DNA of 37,133 nucleotides from NCBI GenBank assembly GCA_020354065.1, contig CP070640.1, positions 425,964 through 463,096 on the forward strand. The letters are read 5' to 3'. A program made the position numbers and the translations under genes. The DNA is from Candidatus Bathyarchaeota archaeon. GTDB taxonomy: Archaea > Thermoproteota > Bathyarchaeia > TCS64. Below, one piece after another: positions 4,036 to 33,653 of this stretch. A model generated the notes under the pieces. It did not search any database. It was not told where the DNA came from and saw only the letters and a program-made list of their open reading frames with translations. The number at the start of each line of letters is the position of its first letter. The first letter of the stretch is position 1.

Positions 4036-6135
4036 GTGGAGGGAAGGCGGCTGTTCAGGGTTAGCGTCGATGTGGGCGGGACCTTCACCGACCTCGTGGC
4101 GTTGAGGGAGGAGGACGGGGTCCTCATCAACATCAAGGTGCCCTCTGTCCCGAGAAACCCAGAGTGGGGCGTGATCGACGCATTGAATAAGTTCCTTGAG
4201 GGACGGAGCCCTGGCTCAGTCGGGATGGTAGGCCACGCTACCACAATCGCCACTAACGCCCTCTTCGGTCAGATCGACCTTGAGCTCCCGGAGACAGCAT
4301 TCATAACCACGAAGGGCTTTCGAGACGTGATAGAGATAGGCCGGCAGAGGAGGGCTGAGGTGTACAACCTCTTCTTCCAGCGCCCCCCGATGCTGGTGAG
4401 CAGAAGGCACAGGTACGAGGTAGAGGAGCGGATCGACGCCGATGGGAGCGTCCTAGCTTCACTCAACAGAGAGGATGTAGTCGAGGCACTGGATGACATT
4501 AAGAGGGAGGGGATAGATGCTCTCGCCGTCGGGTTCCTCAACTCCTATCGTAACACGGCTCATGAAGACGAGGTGGTCGGGATGATCAGGGAACGGATGC
4601 CGGGCGTCCACTGCACCGCCTCAAGCCGAGTCTCAAGCGAGTACCGGGAGTATGAGCGTTTCAGCACAGCCGTGGTGAACGCGGCTCTGATTCCAATCAT
4701 CAACACCTACCTCTCAAAGCTAGCCTTAGACATGAAGGAGTTGGGCGTAGCTGCGCCCCTCTATGTCATGCAGTCGAACGGGGGGATGGCGATGGCTGAG
4801 GTGGTCTCGGAGAGGCCGGCGACAATCGTGGAGTCGGGCCCGGCGTCTGGCGTGATAGCCGCCGCCTGGCTCGGGGAGCTCATGGGGAGGAGGGAGGTCA
4901 TCAGCTTCGACATGGGGGGTACCACGGCCAAGGCCGGCACCGTGAGGGGGAGGATCCCCGAGGTGGTCCACGAGTACGAGGTAGCTGGGAAGATCCACAT
5001 GGGCCGCCTCCTCAAGGGGAGCGGCTACCCGGTCAGGTTCCCCTTCATCGACCTCGCAGAGTGTAGCGCCGGCGGGGGAACAATTGCCTGGGCTGATGAT
5101 GCAGGAGCCCTCAACCTGGGACCCGTGAGCGCCGGTGCGGATCCTGGACCTGCCTGCTATAGCAGAGAGGGGGAGGAGCCCACCATCACAGATGCCAACC
5201 TTCTCCTCGGGAGGATGAACCCCGTGAGCCTCCTGGGAGGCGGGATGCCTATCTACGCACATCTGGCCGAACGAGCTGTGAGTCGTCTCGGCGACGCCCT
5301 CGGTATGGACGCCGCAGGGACGGCTGCTAGCGTCGTGAGGATCGCCAACTCCATGATGTCTAAGATCCTCCGCATCGTCTCTGTGGAGAGAGGCTTTGAC
5401 CCTAGGAACTTCACCCTGGTGGCCTTCGGCGGCGCAGGGCCCATGCACGCCTGCCCTCTCGCGGAGGAGCTCGAGATCCCCGAGATCCTGGTTCCCCCAA
5501 ATCCCGGGATGTTCTCGGCCCTCGGGCTGCTCGCCGCAGACCTTTTCCACGATCATTCGAGAGCCCTGGTCAGGAAGGTTGACGAGGTTGACCCCGTTGA
5601 GGTGGTTGTCCTTTTCGATGAGATGGAGGCAGAGGGGAGGAAGACCCTGCTGGCAGAGGGAGTCAAGCTCGACTCGATGCTAATCAAAAGGCAGCTGGAC
5701 CTCAGGTACCTCGGTCAGTCATATGAGTTGACCGTTGATGTGCACGGGGTTTTCGACTCCGATGTATTGTTACAGGCGGTCGAGGCCTTCCACGGGAAGC
5801 ACAGGGAGATATACGGCTACGCAGCGGAGGACGAAACCGTTGAGTTGGTGACAGTACGGTTGAGGGCGGTGGGGTTGAGCCCCAAACCATCTTTGGAGGT
5901 GAGAGCAACCGTTGAAGGAGAACCAGGCGCCAAGGAGGTGCGCCCCGCCTACTTTGAGGGGCCCGATTCATGGATTGAGACGCCAATATATGATAGAGAG
6001 ACACTGGGCGAAGGGGTGGTTCTCGGAGGCCCCGTCATAATCGAGCAGTACGACGCGACAACCGTGGCGTATCCGGGCTGGGAGGTGGAGGTGGGCATGT
6101 ATGGAAACCTGCTACTGAGGAGGAGACGGCAATGA
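4036..6135 (+). CDS. hyuA: hydantoinase/oxoprolinase family protein, subunit A
   Basis: 699 residues, GTG start set by the upstream TATA box. The N-terminal VDVGGTFTD phosphate-binding motif (about residue 11) and the [12 protein letters not shown] motif near residue 293 belong to the actin-like ATPase fold of HyuA/OplA proteins; a [14 protein letters not shown] segment near 477 is also typical. Family members use ATP to open or carboxylate cyclic amides and ketones (N-methylhydantoin, 5-oxoproline, acetone/acetophenone). The stop overlaps the ATG of hyuB (ATGA), so the two subunits are made together. Substrate is not resolvable; 5-oxoproline or hydantoins from peptide and nucleobase breakdown would fit the neighbourhood. 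Confidence 0.9.
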
Positions 6136-7859
6136 GCCTCGACGCCACAACCATCGAGGTGATAAAGGGAGCCCTAATCTACGCCGCCGAGGAGATGGGG
6201 GTAGCTCTCCGGAAATCGGCCTACTCCCCCAACATCAAGGAGCGGATGGACCACAGCTGCGCCCTGTTCGATCACCAACAGAGGCTCGTGGCCCAGGCGG
6301 AGCACATCCCCGTCCACCTCGGCTCCATGGCTCTCGCCGTCAGGGAGGGGCTGAGGCTCTATGAGGGGACATTGGGGGCGGGGGACATGCTCCTCCTGAA
6401 TGACCCCTACATAAGCGGAACCCACCTCCCAGACCTGACCCTCATCGCCCCCGTATTCCATGAAGGGAGACTTATCGGCTACGCCGCTAACAAGGCCCAC
6501 CACACAGACGTAGGAGGAAGAGCCCCTGGCAGCATCGCGGGGGACGCATCAGAGCTCTACCAGGAGGGCCTCATCATACCCCCCGTGAAGTTCGTGCGAG
6601 GAGGCGAGGTCGACTCTGAGATAGCCGCCCTGATCAGGAGTAACGTTAGGACACCGGATGTGCAGATGGGTGACCTCAGGGCGCAGATCGCAGCGAACAA
6701 CACCGGCATCAGGAGGCTCAGGGAGCTAATCGAGGAGCATGGGGTGGAGACCGTCCAGGCCGCGATGGAGGCGGTGATGGACTACTCGGAGAGGAGGATG
6801 CGCGCCGAGATCGCGGCGATGCCCGATGGCGTCTACGAGGCGGAGGACTGGATGGAGGACACGGGAACAGGAGACGAGCCGGTGAAGATCAAGGTTAGGG
6901 TGACCATAGACGGGGAGGAGATCGGCTTCGACTATTCAGGCACCGCCCCCCAGGTGGACGGTCCCGTGAACGCCCCTCTCGGGGTGACCCTTGCCGGGGT
7001 CTTCTACACGCTCATCTCGATAACCGACCCCACCATACCCGTGAACGACGGGTGCTTCCGCCCCATCAGCCTTCACGTACCAGAGGGGTGCATGATGAAC
7101 CCCAGGAGGCCTGCCCCTGTGGCCGGGGGGAACGTGGAGACCAGCCAGAGGAACGTGGACACTCTACTGAGGGCCTTAGCGGAGGCTGTCCCTGAGAAGG
7201 TACCGGCGGCCAGCCAGGGGACGATGAACAACATCTCCATCGGGGGTGTCATGGAGGATGGGGCCTCATGGACCTTCTATGAGACTATTGCAGGTGGGAG
7301 CGGGGGGAGGCCGGACTCTGACGGCGTGGATGGGGTCCACGTCCACATGACCAACACGATGAACACCCCCATCGAGGCACTGGAGGCCTACCTCCCCCTC
7401 CGATTCGAGTCCTATCGGCTCAGAAAGGACAGCGGAGGGCCGGGGAGGTGGAGGGGGGGATGCGGAGTCGAGAGGAGCTGGACCCTCACCTCGTCGAAGG
7501 GAATCCTCTCCATCCTAGCTGAGAGGACGAGAATCCCGCCATGGGGCCTCAGGGGGGGATCTCCCGGCGCTCTGGGCGAGTACGTCCTGAGGCGGGGGGA
7601 CGGGAGCGAGATCAAGCTTCCCTCGAAGTGTACGGTCCCCCTTGGAAGAGGAGATGCTCTGATCATCAGGACGCCGGGTGGCGGCGGGTACGGCCATCCC
7701 TTGAACCGCCCTCCGGGACGAGTTCTGGAGGATGTCAAGGATGGCCTGGTGAGCCTTGAAGCCGCTGAGAGGGACTACGGAGTTGTGATAGATCCCCTTG
7801 GGCTTCGGGTTTCACTGGAAGCGACTGAAAGCCTGAGGAAGAAACTCAGTACCGAATAG
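6132..7859 (+). CDS. hyuB: hydantoinase/oxoprolinase family protein, subunit B
   Basis: 575 residues, typical for HyuB. Recognisable segments include HSCALFDHQQRLVAQAEHIP near residue 36, LNDPYISGTHLPDL near 95, HHTDVGG near 123 and the C-terminal GPGRWRGGCGVER near 440, with TPGGGGYG near the end. It pairs with HyuA; in this family both subunits are required for the ATP-dependent reaction. The 4-nt overlap with hyuA implies coupled translation in a two-gene operon. The downstream hypC has its own TATA box, so the operon probably ends here. Confidence 0.9.
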   Translation: MSLDATTIEVIKGALIYAAEEMGVALRKSAYSPNIKERMDHSCALFDHQQRLVAQAEHIPVHLGSMALAVREGLRLYEGTLGAGDMLLLNDPYISGTHLPDLTLIAPVFHEGRLIGYAANKAHHTDVGGRAPGSIAGDASELYQEGLIIPPVKFVRGGEVDSEIAALIRSNVRTPDVQMGDLRAQIAANNTGIRRLRELIEEHGVETVQAAMEAVMDYSERRMRAEIAAMPDGVYEAEDWMEDTGTGDEPVKIKVRVTIDGEEIGFDYSGTAPQVDGPVNAPLGVTLAGVFYTLISITDPTIPVNDGCFRPISLHVPEGCMMNPRRPAPVAGGNVETSQRNVDTLLRALAEAVPEKVPAASQGTMNNISIGGVMEDGASWTFYETIAGGSGGRPDSDGVDGVHVHMTNTMNTPIEALEAYLPLRFESYRLRKDSGGPGRWRGGCGVERSWTLTSSKGILSILAERTRIPPWGLRGGSPGALGEYVLRRGDGSEIKLPSKCTVPLGRGDALIIRTPGGGGYGHPLNRPPGRVLEDVKDGLVSLEAAERDYGVVIDPLGLRVSLEATESLRKKLSTE

Positions 7860-14883: not shown

Positions 14884-14970
14884 TGGCGCCGGGGGTGGGA
14901 TTCGAACCCACGCGACCCGAAGGTCACAGACTTAGCAGGCCTGCTCCTTACCAGGCTAGGAAACCCCGGC
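14884..14970 (-). tRNA. tRNA-Ser (anticodon GCU)
   Basis: The reverse strand folds as a complete class II tRNA: acceptor stem GCCGGGG/CCCCGGC, D-arm with the GG pair, anticodon stem CAGGC/GTCTG around loop CTGCTAA giving anticodon GCT, a long variable arm GACC-TTCG-GGTC, T-arm GTGGG-TTCGAAT-CCCAC, discriminator G and an encoded CCA (14884-14886). Long variable arm plus GCU anticodon identify the serine tRNA that reads AGC/AGU. No intron is seen in the anticodon loop. Confidence 0.95.
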
Positions 14971-19927: not shown

Positions 19928-21121
19928 TTACTCGAACTCGACAGTGGCCGGCGGCTTTGGCGTGATGTCGTAGTAGACCTTGATCACCTTGGGGCAGCTG
20001 CTCAGTATCTCTTTGGCCGCGATCCTGAGCGTCTTCCAAGGTATCTGGGAGATCTCGGCGGTGAGGAAATCCCTGGTCTCTACAGCCCTCATCGAGATGT
20101 AGTACCCCTCGTCGTCCCCTCTCTCAGCTACCAGGTAGAGCATCCGCGAAATTTCGGGGTGATCAGACTGGACCGTGTGCCTCATTCCTTCCAAGGCCTC
20201 GTAACTCAACTCCAAGGATTTACCTTCACCGTTCTTGATCTCCATCGCAGCAACGAGGCCATAGGTCCTTTTCCCCTCGACCATCCCCGTGGCTTTCTCG
20301 GAAAGATACTCTGCTGCGACCTGGGTCTCCTCGATTCCAATGGCTTCGGCCACCTCCTTTACAAGTGCTTGGGGCACATCCATCGTCCTCCCGCTCATGA
20401 TAGCCGTGAAGTACTGGGCTGGCTTCAGCTCAGCGAATGCGTCCTCAACCACCGCTGTGGCTGCCTTCAGCTGTTCAAGCTTGTCCTGTGTTAAAGCACC
20501 CACCACCCTCACGGATAGCCCTGGGCCCGGGAAGGGCTGCCTCTCAGAAACCTCGCTTGAGGCGCCGAGATACCTTGCCACCTCCCTCACCTGATACTTG
20601 TAGAGGGATGCGACGGGCTCGACAACCCTGTAACCGAACCTCTCGACCGGGTCTATCCCGATCTGCTCCAGGATGTTGTGCTGGGTCTTGATGCCCCCCT
20701 TCGTCTCATCGATGTCGGCCTTTATCGTCCCTTGGACGAGGTAGCCGCACCCCTCCCTCCGAGCCGCGTCGCTCAGTGTCTTATAGAAGGTCTCTCTGAA
20801 GGCCTTCCGCTTGTCTTCAGCGTCGATTAATATGTCTAGGGCGTCCATGAAGCGTGTACGCTCGTCCAGCACCTTCACCGGGAGGTTCAAGGGTGAGGCT
20901 GAGAGCAATTGCTTCACCTTCTCGGGCTCCCCGATACGCATGAAGTTGTCGTCGATGAAAACGCAGACAAGGTTATCTCCGATGGCCAGGTGTGTGAGGA
21001 CCGCGGAGACCGTGCTGTCCACACCTCCGGAGACCGCTATCAGAGCTCTCTCGTCACCGAGTGCTTCTCTGATCGCCTCAACCTGCTTATCGACGAAGGC
21101 TTTGACATCAATACCCGACAT
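19928..21121 (-). CDS. guaA: GMP synthase, ATP-pyrophosphatase (B) subunit
   Basis: 397 residues. The PP-loop SGGVDS is at 31-36, the XMP/ATP region includes QGTIKADIDE (130-139) and RQPFPGPGLS (194-203), and the C-terminal dimerisation domain ends DITPKPPATVEFE. It aminates XMP to GMP with ammonia delivered by a separate glutaminase subunit, the split arrangement usual in archaea; that partner is not in the window. Typical B subunits have about 305-310 residues. The excess lies in two places, about 245-282 and about 297-340, around the GKRTYG motif. Leader is short, with aagga 4-8 nt before the ATG. Confidence 0.87.
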   Translation of the reverse strand: MSGIDVKAFVDKQVEAIREALGDERALIAVSGGVDSTVSAVLTHLAIGDNLVCVFIDDNFMRIGEPEKVKQLLSASPLNLPVKVLDERTRFMDALDILIDAEDKRKAFRETFYKTLSDAARREGCGYLVQGTIKADIDETKGGIKTQHNILEQIGIDPVERFGYRVVEPVASLYKYQVREVARYLGASSEVSERQPFPGPGLSVRVVGALTQDKLEQLKAATAVVEDAFAELKPAQYFTAIMSGRTMDVPQALVKEVAEAIGIEETQVAAEYLSEKATGMVEGKRTYGLVAAMEIKNGEGKSLELSYEALEGMRHTVQSDHPEISRMLYLVAERGDDEGYYISMRAVETRDFLTAEISQIPWKTLRIAAKEILSSCPKVIKVYYDITPKPPATVEFE

Positions 21122-22951: not shown

Positions 22952-23992
22952 TTAATCGAGATTGATCTCCAAGCCAAGCTCCTCTGCTAGCTCCAAGATG
23001 CTGCTCCAAGTCTCTTCTGGGAGAGGTATGCCCTCGCTGAGGCGTCTATCTTTCGTCTCCCACTCAGGCTCCCCAGGGTAGAGAACCCGCTTACCAGGCT
23101 CAGGCGGTACCCTCCTCACCTGGCGGAGGATCTCATCGGTCTGCAGCTTGAAGTCGTTCAGCCTAATGAATGCATCAGGATCTAAGGCTATTGCGAATAC
23201 GCCGTTGGTTGACGGGGGTTCTTTTTTTGGGTCGAGGCCCGTTCTCGACCCGGTCAGGATGGCGCCGAGGAGCTCGTTTAATAGCTGGAGGCAGTAACCT
23301 TTGTACTCACCAAAGGGGAGGAGCCAGCCCCCTTGCTTGATGGCCCAGGGGTCGTCGGTTACTTTGCCGTCTCTATCCCTGGTCCAGTGGGTCGGGATCT
23401 TCTCCGCCTTCGATCTGGCGATGGTGATCTTGCCCTCCGCCACCACCGATGTGGCGTAGTCGATGAGGAAGGGTCTGACCTCTCCCGTGGGGACGGCGGC
23501 GCTGAAGGGGTTTGTGCCGAATACTTTTCCGGTCCCGTTGAAGACGGTAACAGCCGGGTGACCGACGTTGACGAACATCATCGCCACGACTCCTTTTTCA
23601 GCCGCCCAGTTAGTGTAGTAGCCCACGCGTCCGATATGGTTGCAGTTGAAGGCCCCGACGGCGCTGACGGCGTTCTTCATCGCCTTCTCCACGGCTGTTT
23701 CGACGACTTTCAAGGCCGTAATCTGCCCGGGGGCCCAGCGACCGTCCAGAAGGGCGGTGGAGGCGGTCTCCTTTACGATCTTGGGTTCTGCCTTTGGGTC
23801 TATGTGTCCCTCTCTTATCCGTTCCGAGTATCTTGGGATGTAGAACACTCCGTGGGAGTCGTGGCCCGTCAGACTCGCCTCGACCAGGGTCTCCGCGATG
23901 AACTCGGCCTTCTCCCTGGATAGCCCCTGTGCTGAGAATATTCCTGTTCCAAGTCTCAGTAGTTTGTCGGCGGGAACGAGGATCATGGACAT
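22952..23992 (-). CDS. malate/L-lactate dehydrogenase family (LDH2/MDG2) oxidoreductase
   Basis: 346 residues. The fold-specific motifs are GHDSHGV near residue 44, AFNCNHIGRVGYY near 112, and FGTNPFSAAVPT near 158; these belong to the NAD(P)-dependent type-2 malate/lactate/ureidoglycolate/sulfolactate dehydrogenases, which lack a Rossmann fold. The substrate is a small 2-hydroxy acid, not identifiable further. A TATA-like ctttataatcc lies about 22 nt upstream of the ATG. The gene follows the threonine aldolase gene by 42 nt on the same strand, so the products of one may feed the other, but this is inference. Confidence 0.87.
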   Translation of the reverse strand: MSMILVPADKLLRLGTGIFSAQGLSREKAEFIAETLVEASLTGHDSHGVFYIPRYSERIREGHIDPKAEPKIVKETASTALLDGRWAPGQITALKVVETAVEKAMKNAVSAVGAFNCNHIGRVGYYTNWAAEKGVVAMMFVNVGHPAVTVFNGTGKVFGTNPFSAAVPTGEVRPFLIDYATSVVAEGKITIARSKAEKIPTHWTRDRDGKVTDDPWAIKQGGWLLPFGEYKGYCLQLLNELLGAILTGSRTGLDPKKEPPSTNGVFAIALDPDAFIRLNDFKLQTDEILRQVRRVPPEPGKRVLYPGEPEWETKDRRLSEGIPLPEETWSSILELAEELGLEINLD

Positions 23993-31412: not shown

Positions 31413-31424
31413 AGTTTTTTATTT
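31413..31424 (+). promoter_or_regulatory. TATA box that fixes the PurF-like start
   Basis: agttttttattt is centred 27-28 nt upstream of ATG 31446, the usual leaderless spacing in this window. An in-frame TTG at 31437 would be only about 19 nt away, and in-frame starts further upstream lack homology. Confidence 0.5.
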
Positions 31425-31445
31425 GAACAAGGATCATTGTGCTAT

Positions 31446-32828
31446 ATGGAGGGCGTAATAGGAGTCTACTCAAAGGAGGATGCCGCCCGGAAGGCGTTGT
31501 ACACTCTCTATGGCGTGCAGCACCGGGGTCAGGAGAGTGCAGGCGTATCTGCGGCCGGGGATCACTCCCTCCGGACATGGAAGGGGAAAGGCCTCGTCTC
31601 CAACGTTTTTGACGAGAGATACCGGTCTTTCACGCATCCGGACGACTACATCGTGATCGGGTGTGCCTCCGGCGAGGACGCAAACAACCTCGAACTGCCC
31701 CCGATTGAATTCAGCTCGGGACGCTACGATTTCTCAATAGCCCTCGACGGGAATGTCCCTGAAAAAGGAGCCAGACCCGACGAGGAGGTCCTGGGGAGAC
31801 TCATCGAAGAGAAGCTAGCCCGGAGCGAAGACATAGAATCAGCCCTGGCTCAGACAATGAAAGGGCTTGCAGACTCGTATTACTCCCTGGTCATGGCGGT
31901 ACTCGATAAAGAGACGGGAAGAAGCGAGCTTGTGGCTGCGAGGGACAGGTACGGCATCAGACCGCTGTACATTGCACACAACGTTGATGATCTGTTCATC
32001 GCCTCGGAGTCGGCTCCCATCGATGTCCTCGAGGGCCTGGGTTTCGCTTTCGACACGAGGCGGGATTTCGTCCCTGGAGCCATCATACGGTGGGACGGGG
32101 AGGGATTGAGTGAGACCCAGGTCTTGGAACCTAAACAGGCGCACTGCGTGTTCGAGTGGGTCTATTTTGGAAGACCGGACTCCGTCATCGAGGGGAGAAC
32201 GGTTCACTCGGTCAGGAAGAGGCTGGGCCACGCCCTAGTGGAGACCCACTCCCTGAGAAAACTTTACGACCTGACGCAGGGTCGAAAAGGGGAGATGGTC
32301 CTTATACCTGTCCCTGATTCAGGCAGATCCGTATGCACAGGAGTCTCTGAGACCCTCGGAGTGGCCTCGGACGAAGGGGTCATCAAGAACGCCTATCTAG
32401 GCAGGACCTACATAATCGACGACCCGAACTTCAGGAAGATAGCCTCGGATCTGAAACACAACATCATCAGGGAGACTGTGAGAGGGAAGAAGGTGGTGAT
32501 CACGGACGACAGTATTGTGAGGGGGACTGTTAGCGAGTCTATAGCTCAGAACCTACTCATGGCTGGGGCAGCGGAGGTCGACTTCCTCGTGAGCTTTGGT
32601 CCCATCTTCTACCCCTGCCTCTCAGACCGCAAGGACAAGACCCTAGCGGCCTCCCGTTACAAGGGGAAGAGCCTGACTGAGGTCGGGGATCTCGTGGCCT
32701 CTAACCTTCCATCTATCAACAACGTGAGGTACAACTCGCCCGAGAACGTGGTCGAGGCGATAGGGCTTCCGAGAGACCATCTCTGCATCCAATGCATGAG
32801 CGGGGAGAAACCCTTTGAAGAGAAATAA
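31446..32828 (+). CDS. amidophosphoribosyltransferase (PurF) homologue lacking the glutaminase nucleophile
   Basis: 460 residues from ATG 31446. The phosphoribosyltransferase half is intact: FEWVYFGRPDSVIEGRTVHS near 237, PVPDSGRS near 295 and the PRPP motif VVITDDSIVRGT at 350-361. Four cysteines matching the iron-sulfur ligands of B. subtilis-type PurF are present (C234, C391, C447, C450). The N-terminal glutaminase domain keeps the QHRGQESAGV segment, but the catalytic Cys1 of CGIxG is replaced: the protein starts MEGVIGV, and the expected Arg-Tyr and Asn-Gly of the glutamine site are not found (GCASGEDANN, ALDGN). It may use free ammonia or another amine, take ammonia from a partner, or be regulatory. 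Confidence 0.8.
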   Translation: MEGVIGVYSKEDAARKALYTLYGVQHRGQESAGVSAAGDHSLRTWKGKGLVSNVFDERYRSFTHPDDYIVIGCASGEDANNLELPPIEFSSGRYDFSIALDGNVPEKGARPDEEVLGRLIEEKLARSEDIESALAQTMKGLADSYYSLVMAVLDKETGRSELVAARDRYGIRPLYIAHNVDDLFIASESAPIDVLEGLGFAFDTRRDFVPGAIIRWDGEGLSETQVLEPKQAHCVFEWVYFGRPDSVIEGRTVHSVRKRLGHALVETHSLRKLYDLTQGRKGEMVLIPVPDSGRSVCTGVSETLGVASDEGVIKNAYLGRTYIIDDPNFRKIASDLKHNIIRETVRGKKVVITDDSIVRGTVSESIAQNLLMAGAAEVDFLVSFGPIFYPCLSDRKDKTLAASRYKGKSLTEVGDLVASNLPSINNVRYNSPENVVEAIGLPRDHLCIQCMSGEKPFEEK

Positions 32829-32939: not shown

Positions 32940-33653
32940 ATGGAGGAGAAGATCATCGGGATTCTCGGGGGCATGGGACCGGAAGCCACTGCAGACCTGT
33001 TCTACAAGATCATCAGGGCCACCCCCGTCGAGAAGGATCAGGATCACATCAGGACGATCATATACAGCAACCCCAAGGTCCCGGACAGGACGCCAGCCGT
33101 CCTCGGGACCGGGGAGAACCCCGTGCCGGAGATGCTCATGGCGGGGAAGAGGCTGGAGGAGGCGGGTGCGGACTTCCTCATCATCCCGTGCAACACCGCC
33201 CACCACTTCATCGATGAGCTGAGGGAGAGCTTGAGGGTCTCTGTCCTCCACATGATCGAGATGACCGCGGAAATGGTGAGGCGGGAGTTCCCGGAGGTCG
33301 AAAAAGCCGGGCTGATCGCCACCGACGGTACGGTGGATAGCCGGATCTACGAGAGATTCTTCTCAAAGTCGGGAATCAACATCCGGGTCCCGGATGAAGC
33401 CCTGCAGCGGAGGACAATGGAGGCAATATATGAGCATATAAAGAGGGGGGAGCTAAGGGAGGGGCGGAGGATCGTCTTGGAGGTAGCTGAGAGCCTGATG
33501 GGGAGGGGAGCGGAGATGGTGATCTGTGGTTGCACGGAGGTCTCCCTGGTCTTGAAGGATGGAGACATCGCGGTGCCGGTTGTCGATCCGATGCAGGTCC
33601 TGGCAGAGAAGGCCGTGGGCATAGCCCTCGGCAGTTTGGAGCTGCCTGCGTAG
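32940..33653 (+). CDS. aspartate/glutamate racemase family protein
   Basis: 237 residues. Start with IIGILGGMGPEATADLFYKI, the family N-terminal signature. The two catalytic cysteines are in IPCNTAHH near residue 83 and ICGCTEVSL near 195. The cofactor-independent family interconverts L- and D-aspartate (or glutamate), and relatives include amino-acid racemases of broader use. ggaggg 8-13 nt before the ATG is a good ribosome-binding site. D-aspartate or D-glutamate turnover would fit with the D-aminoacylase elsewhere in the window, but the substrate is not proven. Confidence 0.87.
   Translation: MEEKIIGILGGMGPEATADLFYKIIRATPVEKDQDHIRTIIYSNPKVPDRTPAVLGTGENPVPEMLMAGKRLEEAGADFLIIPCNTAHHFIDELRESLRVSVLHMIEMTAEMVRREFPEVEKAGLIATDGTVDSRIYERFFSKSGINIRVPDEALQRRTMEAIYEHIKRGELREGRRIVLEVAESLMGRGAEMVICGCTEVSLVLKDGDIAVPVVDPMQVLAEKAVGIALGSLELPA

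Follow-up and report, generated by a model that had tools for sequence, protein, structure and literature searches.

PurF (EC 2.4.2.14) is a textbook example of a channelled amidotransferase. In the Crenarchaeota, a homologue that lacks the N-terminal cysteine, PurF', is encoded near a Cys-bearing PurF; it has been proposed to use ammonia, and Brown et al. (2011) left the question of this Cys-less protein open (PMC3261824). PurF' is hard to test because of the active PurF nearby. In Methanocorpusculum labreanum, the PurF-like copy Mlab_0150 has Ser in place of the active-site Cys and was described as the product of a recent duplication, next to an intact PurF, in a single species (PMC3261824). 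For E. coli PurF with Cys1 replaced, glutamine activity was nil and ammonia was still used (Mei and Zalkin 1989, as cited in PMC3261824), a property on which the preliminary description of the present gene had drawn, in agreement with that citation. In the open-access literature we found no characterised case of a natural ammonia-only PurF, and nothing on PurF' or on purine synthesis in Bathyarchaeota that comes closer than PMC3261824; later work may exist.

The gene described here lies in a 37,133-nucleotide stretch of DNA from a Candidatus Bathyarchaeota archaeon (hereafter the window), whose genome consists of one 1.50 Mb contig and is ~77% complete. It occupies positions 31446..32828 on the + strand and encodes a protein of 460 residues, with a degenerate N-terminal Ntn-glutaminase domain followed by a type I phosphoribosyltransferase (PRTase) domain. 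The closest sequence matches in the PDB are the PurF proteins of B. subtilis (1ao0, E 4.8e-46), Arabidopsis and E. coli. Among NCBIfam models, TIGR01134 (purF) matches best, with a score of 222 bits against a cut-off of 350 bits. Cys-competent PurF neighbours score 294-297 bits, likewise under 350, so the TIGR01134 score was of no use as a discriminator. An AlphaFold model built from 31 aligned sequences has a mean pLDDT of 89.8 and a pTM of 0.90, while a version with 13 sequences gave a pLDDT of 74. The top 17 PDB structure matches of the model are all PurF (TM 0.77-0.81 by query length), the best being B. subtilis PurF (1gph, TM 0.81). The protein is predicted from this match to adopt the PurF fold over its whole length, at only 25-29% identity to PurF structures in the structural alignments.

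We searched 120 relatives and obtained 13 further Cys-less sequences, 57-69% identical over the query, of which one is a partial gene. An extra Cys-less fragment of 72 residues (78% identical) is present in genome G003. All of the Cys-less relatives of the window type fall within one Bathyarchaeota family, and in a scan of GTDB genomes the clade was met in Bathyarchaeota records only. The next relatives in that scan are ~30% identical and carry the Cys wherever the start is readable. Residues were scored in the 13 full-length clade members, the window protein included, and promoters were compared in 14 sequences.

The window protein starts MEGVIGV. Its residue 3 pairs with mature residue 2 of 1ao0, so that Glu2 (codon at 31449..31451) stands in the place of the catalytic Cys1 in the alignment with PurF. 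The N-termini of the clade read M-[EQK]-G-V, with Gln in nine, Lys in three and Glu in one of the full-length members at the Cys1 position; a catalytic N-terminal Cys is absent from all 13. The remainder of the glutamine site is altered as well. In the window protein the GHVRYAT motif with its glutamine-binding Arg is cut to G----CASG by a four-residue deletion, and in the alignment with B. subtilis PurF the HNG motif has become DG and SDTE is absent. The oxyanion-hole Asn-Gly is replaced by Asp101-Gly102 (31746..31751), with Asp in 13/13. Across the clade, the Arg of VRYAT is kept in 0/13, the Asn in 0/13 and the Asp of SDTE in 1/13. The same four positions in 48 PurF rows hold Cys in 47 (the one other row being incomplete there), Arg in 47, Asn in 48 and Asp in 47. 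The preliminary description had read the gene as a PurF homologue with a dead glutaminase, missing its glutamine-binding residues, and an intact transferase. This reading holds across the whole clade, and the prospect that the other members might be glutaminase-competent is not borne out by their Cys1 position.

The transferase half is nearly complete. The PRPP-binding loop, VVITDDSIVRGT (32493..32528), contains the invariant DDSIVRGT, and the PRPP flexible loop reads KNAYLGRT (32385..32408) where the canonical sequence is KNRYVGRT. K305, N306, Y308, G310, R311, T312 and K328 (B. subtilis numbering) are present in 13/13, as is DDSIVRGT, and the sole clade-wide departure in the flexible loop is Arg307 to Ala. 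The four cysteines of the Fe-S type of PurF are all present and invariant, namely Cys234 (32145..32147), Cys391 (32616..32618), and Cys447 and Cys450 in the motif CIQC (32784..32795). The retention of the PRPP motif and the iron-sulfur cysteines, noted at the outset for the single protein, is thus a property of the clade.

Both halves of the Cys-less PurF are under purifying selection. Among close pairs with estimable dS, dN/dS is 0.08-0.12 for the N-half and 0.03-0.08 for the C-half; mean pairwise identity in the clade is 55% and 72%, respectively. Some of the glutaminase-domain sequence is kept, the HRGQE motif (31521..31535) being invariant. The earlier proposal that selection acts on the transferase half is therefore too narrow. 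Since the N-domain is constrained, we take it to have a remaining use (in fold, oligomer, channel or regulation) and not to be decaying. A pseudogene was ruled out by dN/dS values well below 1 and by the 14 sequences that share the type.

We considered whether a wrong start or a sequencing error masks a catalytic Cys. Wrongly annotated starts have hidden the Cys of archaeal purF genes in the past (PMC3261824), and the preliminary description had pointed to an in-frame TTG at 31437 (MCYMEGV). This codon exists (31437..31445 before the ATG) and would place a Cys three residues upstream, but as a start it is rejected: it is not conserved in relatives, in four of which a stop closes the frame two or three codons 5' of the Met, and it lies between the ATG and a predicted TATA box. 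All 14 sequences carry this TATA-like box, TTTTTAT (31416..31422, + strand), 24-30 nt before the ATG, between flanks that have diverged. The seven columns hold 9.9 bits of information; the highest value among 1000 shuffles, in which relatedness is not modelled, is 4.1. Archaeal transcription starts ~26 nt downstream of the TATA box. The box at -30..-24 thus indicates that the mRNA begins at or beside the ATG, being leaderless or near-leaderless. With thirteen separate genomes in agreement and the pocket Arg, Asn and Asp lost as well, the chance that the missing Cys is an artefact is close to nil.

To place the clade in the PurF family, a tree was calculated from the transferase half, with the decayed domain left out. 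In this PRTase-only tree of 91 sequences, the window clade (100/100) falls on the PurF side, and the 30 PurF' rows form one clade (100/100) with the window clade outside. Forcing the window clade and PurF' together gave a p-AU of 0.023 (0.031 for the full-length set), a moderate rejection. PurF' is widespread in Thermoproteota and is also found in Bathyarchaeota families f7, f12 and f19. Its rows have Thr for the Asn of KNRY in 29/30 and Gly for the Arg in 28/30, and mostly read DDSVVRG. Membership of the window clade in PurF' is hence moderately rejected by the tree, the p-AU and the loop residues. An origin by recent duplication of the Cys-competent PurF of this family was likewise set aside, the one-clade test being rejected (p 7e-7). 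The best explanation of these alignments and trees is that the window clade arose on the PurF side and would have lost its glutaminase separately from the Crenarchaeal PurF'. The oxyanion Asn is replaced by Asp in 25/30 PurF' rows, as in 13/13 of the window clade; if the tree is right, this looks like a parallel change in both clades. A tree of the Cys-less copies had been proposed in the preliminary description, to see whether they form a clade with conserved neighbours. They do form one clade (100/100), but the neighbours are conserved at genus level only.

To survey the PurF types across the family (f1), 27 genomes were searched with a protein search and a profile search built from the Cys-competent form. 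Nine genomes yielded only the Cys-less PurF (G000, G001, G003, G004, G006, G012, G013, G024 and G025), seven only the Cys-competent form (G002, G005 in pieces, G009, G010, G014, G018 and G020), and six both types (G011, G015, G019, G021, G022 and G023). Neither type was found in five draft genomes of the 27. Most genomes are draft bins, so some of the only-copy calls could be assembly gaps. The search for a second canonical purF, advised at the outset, found none in the ~77% complete window genome, where the other hits were GlmS and one weak partial match; eight relatives are likewise Cys-less only. In no relative whose neighbourhood was read does the Cys-less gene adjoin another PurF, and G011 carries both types on one contig, ~20 kb apart. 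The Cys-competent form is a sequence variant in its own right, exemplified by L046 5228-6688 (-) and also seen in L041-L050, with NHRGHQSHG for QHRGQESAG and RHRYVTQRAFI in the flexible loop. Relatives of this NHRGH PurF stand in tandem with PurF' in other Thermoproteota (L097, L098, L100-L103).

The Cys-competent purF has left traces where it is missing. In the intact genomes examined, it stands directly beside purC in a pur cluster of the order purS-purL-purQ-purE-purF-purC (purS named from sequence only). Relics remain beside purC in three of the genomes with only the Cys-less form: ~34 N-terminal residues, frameshifted, in G001; 31 N-terminal residues in G003; and 75 C-terminal residues with a stop in G013. 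In G019, a frameshift and a stop interrupt the Cys-competent purF. These relic and broken loci lie at L073 9234-9120, L075 10796-10704, L078 5701-5925 and L091 508-1937. No purF trace was seen in the purE-purC interval of G006 and G025. A carbon-nitrogen hydrolase of the nitrilase family (L074 10273-11217, +) occupies this interval, the purF site in relatives, in G006. Four genera show losses of the Cys-competent purF, and in three of them another genome retains it; we infer about four losses from this pattern. The gene is lost or broken in 10/15 genomes with the Cys-less gene versus 0/7 without it (Fisher p 0.005), a test that ignores relatedness and leaves out the five genomes with neither gene, which bring p to 0.26 if counted as losses. 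Five genomes retain an intact second PurF in addition to the Cys-less gene, indicating that the latter is not always a replacement.

Other parts of purine synthesis are present alongside the Cys-less gene. Matches to purD, purL, purM and purC were found in G001, G006, G013 and G025, and the window genome has purD, purL, purQ and purE together with a purM candidate; purC was not found in this incomplete, ~77% complete contig. In the genomes checked, GlmS keeps its Cys and PurQ keeps its triad. The loss of glutaminase is thus specific to PurF, and glutamine is used elsewhere. An Amt ammonium transporter was found in 3/27 genomes, all of one genus and all holding both PurF types with the glutamine-dependent one intact. 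This pattern is suggestive of a fit with ammonia-rich habitats.

The neighbourhood of the Cys-less gene varies. In G024 and G025 it comes after purL-purQ, in the same orientation; in G022 it comes after purQ, and in G004 and G019 an amino-acid kinase precedes it. The window gene is not adjacent to purine genes: a divergent DUF169 gene lies upstream, and a gene of the Asp/Glu/cysteate racemase family (32940..33653, +) follows it, as in G006 and G012 only. The product of this following gene passes the NCBIfam cut-off for cysteate racemase (CuyB), with 252.7 versus 190 bits. We found no operon partner conserved across the clade, and neighbours are shared at genus level only. Elsewhere in the window are a 397-residue PP-loop protein (19931-21121, -) like the C-terminal part of GMP synthase, without a glutaminase domain and under the family cut-off (268 versus 339 bits); a member of the malate/lactate/sulfolactate dehydrogenase family (22955-23992, -), under the family cut-offs; a gene pair (4036-7859, +) like the subunits of caprolactamase or acetophenone carboxylase (hydantoinase type), well under cut-offs; and a tRNA-Ser (GCT) at 14884-14970 (-).

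Taken together, these comparisons suggest that the window protein is probably a PurF without glutaminase that converts PRPP and free ammonia (as NH3) to 5-phosphoribosylamine, the first step of de novo purine synthesis, and that it has probably replaced the glutamine-dependent PurF in several lineages. The catalytic activity, the use of ammonia as nitrogen donor and the role in purine synthesis are all inferred. The transferase half would join PRPP and NH3, and phosphoribosylamine would be handed to PurD. The former glutaminase domain would stay as a structural part, and the Cys-less enzyme would supplant the glutamine-dependent PurF encoded in the pur cluster, whose gene would then be lost. 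With the transferase half intact and no other PurF found, PRPP plus NH3 is the simplest mechanism. The ammonia-dependent reading was among those offered by the preliminary description, and it is favoured by the loss and the relics of the Cys-competent purF and by the adjacency to purQ or purL-purQ in three relatives. Against it stand the Ala for the Arg of KNRY in all clade members, the position of the window gene away from purine genes, and the formation of phosphoribosylamine by other routes in purF mutants, for example of Salmonella, as reported in PMC3485032.

The same phosphoribosylamine role might instead be served by ammonia from a separate docking glutaminase, such as PurQ or another amidotransferase subunit. 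The purQ gene directly upstream in G022, G024 and G025, the intact PurQ triad, the carbon-nitrogen hydrolase in the purE-purC interval of G006, and a constrained ex-glutaminase domain that could be a docking surface all speak for such a partner. We nevertheless regard it as unlikely: purQ lies next to the Cys-less gene in a single genus, the clade has no partner in common, and PurQ, which has PurL to supply in any case, is just as present in genomes that retain the Cys-competent PurF. Somewhat less probable still is a PurF-like subunit that is catalytically idle or regulatory, a role that PurF' may have, with phosphoribosylamine arising by another route or purines being salvaged. PurF' itself is a precedent, a Cys-less homologue long kept beside an active PurF (PMC3261824), and the Salmonella mutants noted above show a PurF-independent source of phosphoribosylamine (PMC3485032). 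However, the transferase residues lost by PurF' are kept in 13/13, purD, purL, purM and purC are kept, and nine genomes have no PurF left to regulate. We give even less credence to a PRPP transferase with another nitrogen donor, an amino acid or amine, or with a role outside purine synthesis. The racemase-family gene on the 3' side in the window, G006 and G012 and the amino-acid kinase on the 5' side in G004 and G019 would suit such a donor, but neighbours vary by genus, and a link to purine synthesis is indicated both by purQ lying next to the gene in three genomes and by the disappearance of the standard PurF.

A broader claim may be put at slightly better than even odds: that a natural ammonia-only PurF displaced the glutamine enzyme several times in one archaeal family, leaving fossils beside purC and making entry into purine synthesis dependent on ammonia, and that Thermoproteota lost the PurF glutaminase on two or more occasions, each accompanied by Asn to Asp at the oxyanion position. 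If true, the nitrogen source of purine synthesis would be tied to ammonia-rich habitats, and this would account for annotation that misses or mislabels the PurF step. As the Cys-less protein is the only PurF found in nine genomes and has a near-complete transferase site, its activity is open to a simple assay.

In comparison with known systems, the window protein shares with PurF (EC 2.4.2.14; B. subtilis 1gph/1ao0, E. coli 1ecf) its whole-length homology, predicted fold, PRPP and flexible loops and HRGQ motif, and with the B. subtilis type the four Fe-S cysteines. It differs from PurF in lacking the Cys nucleophile and the glutamine-binding Arg and Asp, in the oxyanion Asn to Asp change and in the four-residue glutamine-loop deletion. 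The same PurF function is expected of the family's own NHRGH PurF beside purC in the pur cluster, which, unlike the window clade, keeps C1, Arg, Asn and Asp and forms a separate clade. With PurF', the window clade has in common the absence of the N-terminal Cys and, mostly, the same oxyanion Asp; it keeps KNxYxGRT and DDSIVRGT, whereas PurF' has lost the KN-Y flexible loop, and its gene stands alone whereas PurF' sits beside a Cys-bearing PurF. Mlab_0150 is likewise a PurF-like protein with the active-site Cys replaced, but it is confined to one species, whereas the window type is a family-wide clade and often the only PurF found. Finally, the window clade resembles the engineered E. coli Cys1 mutants in having no glutaminase. 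In those mutants the loss was made in the laboratory, whereas in the window clade it is natural, conserved and extends over several residues.
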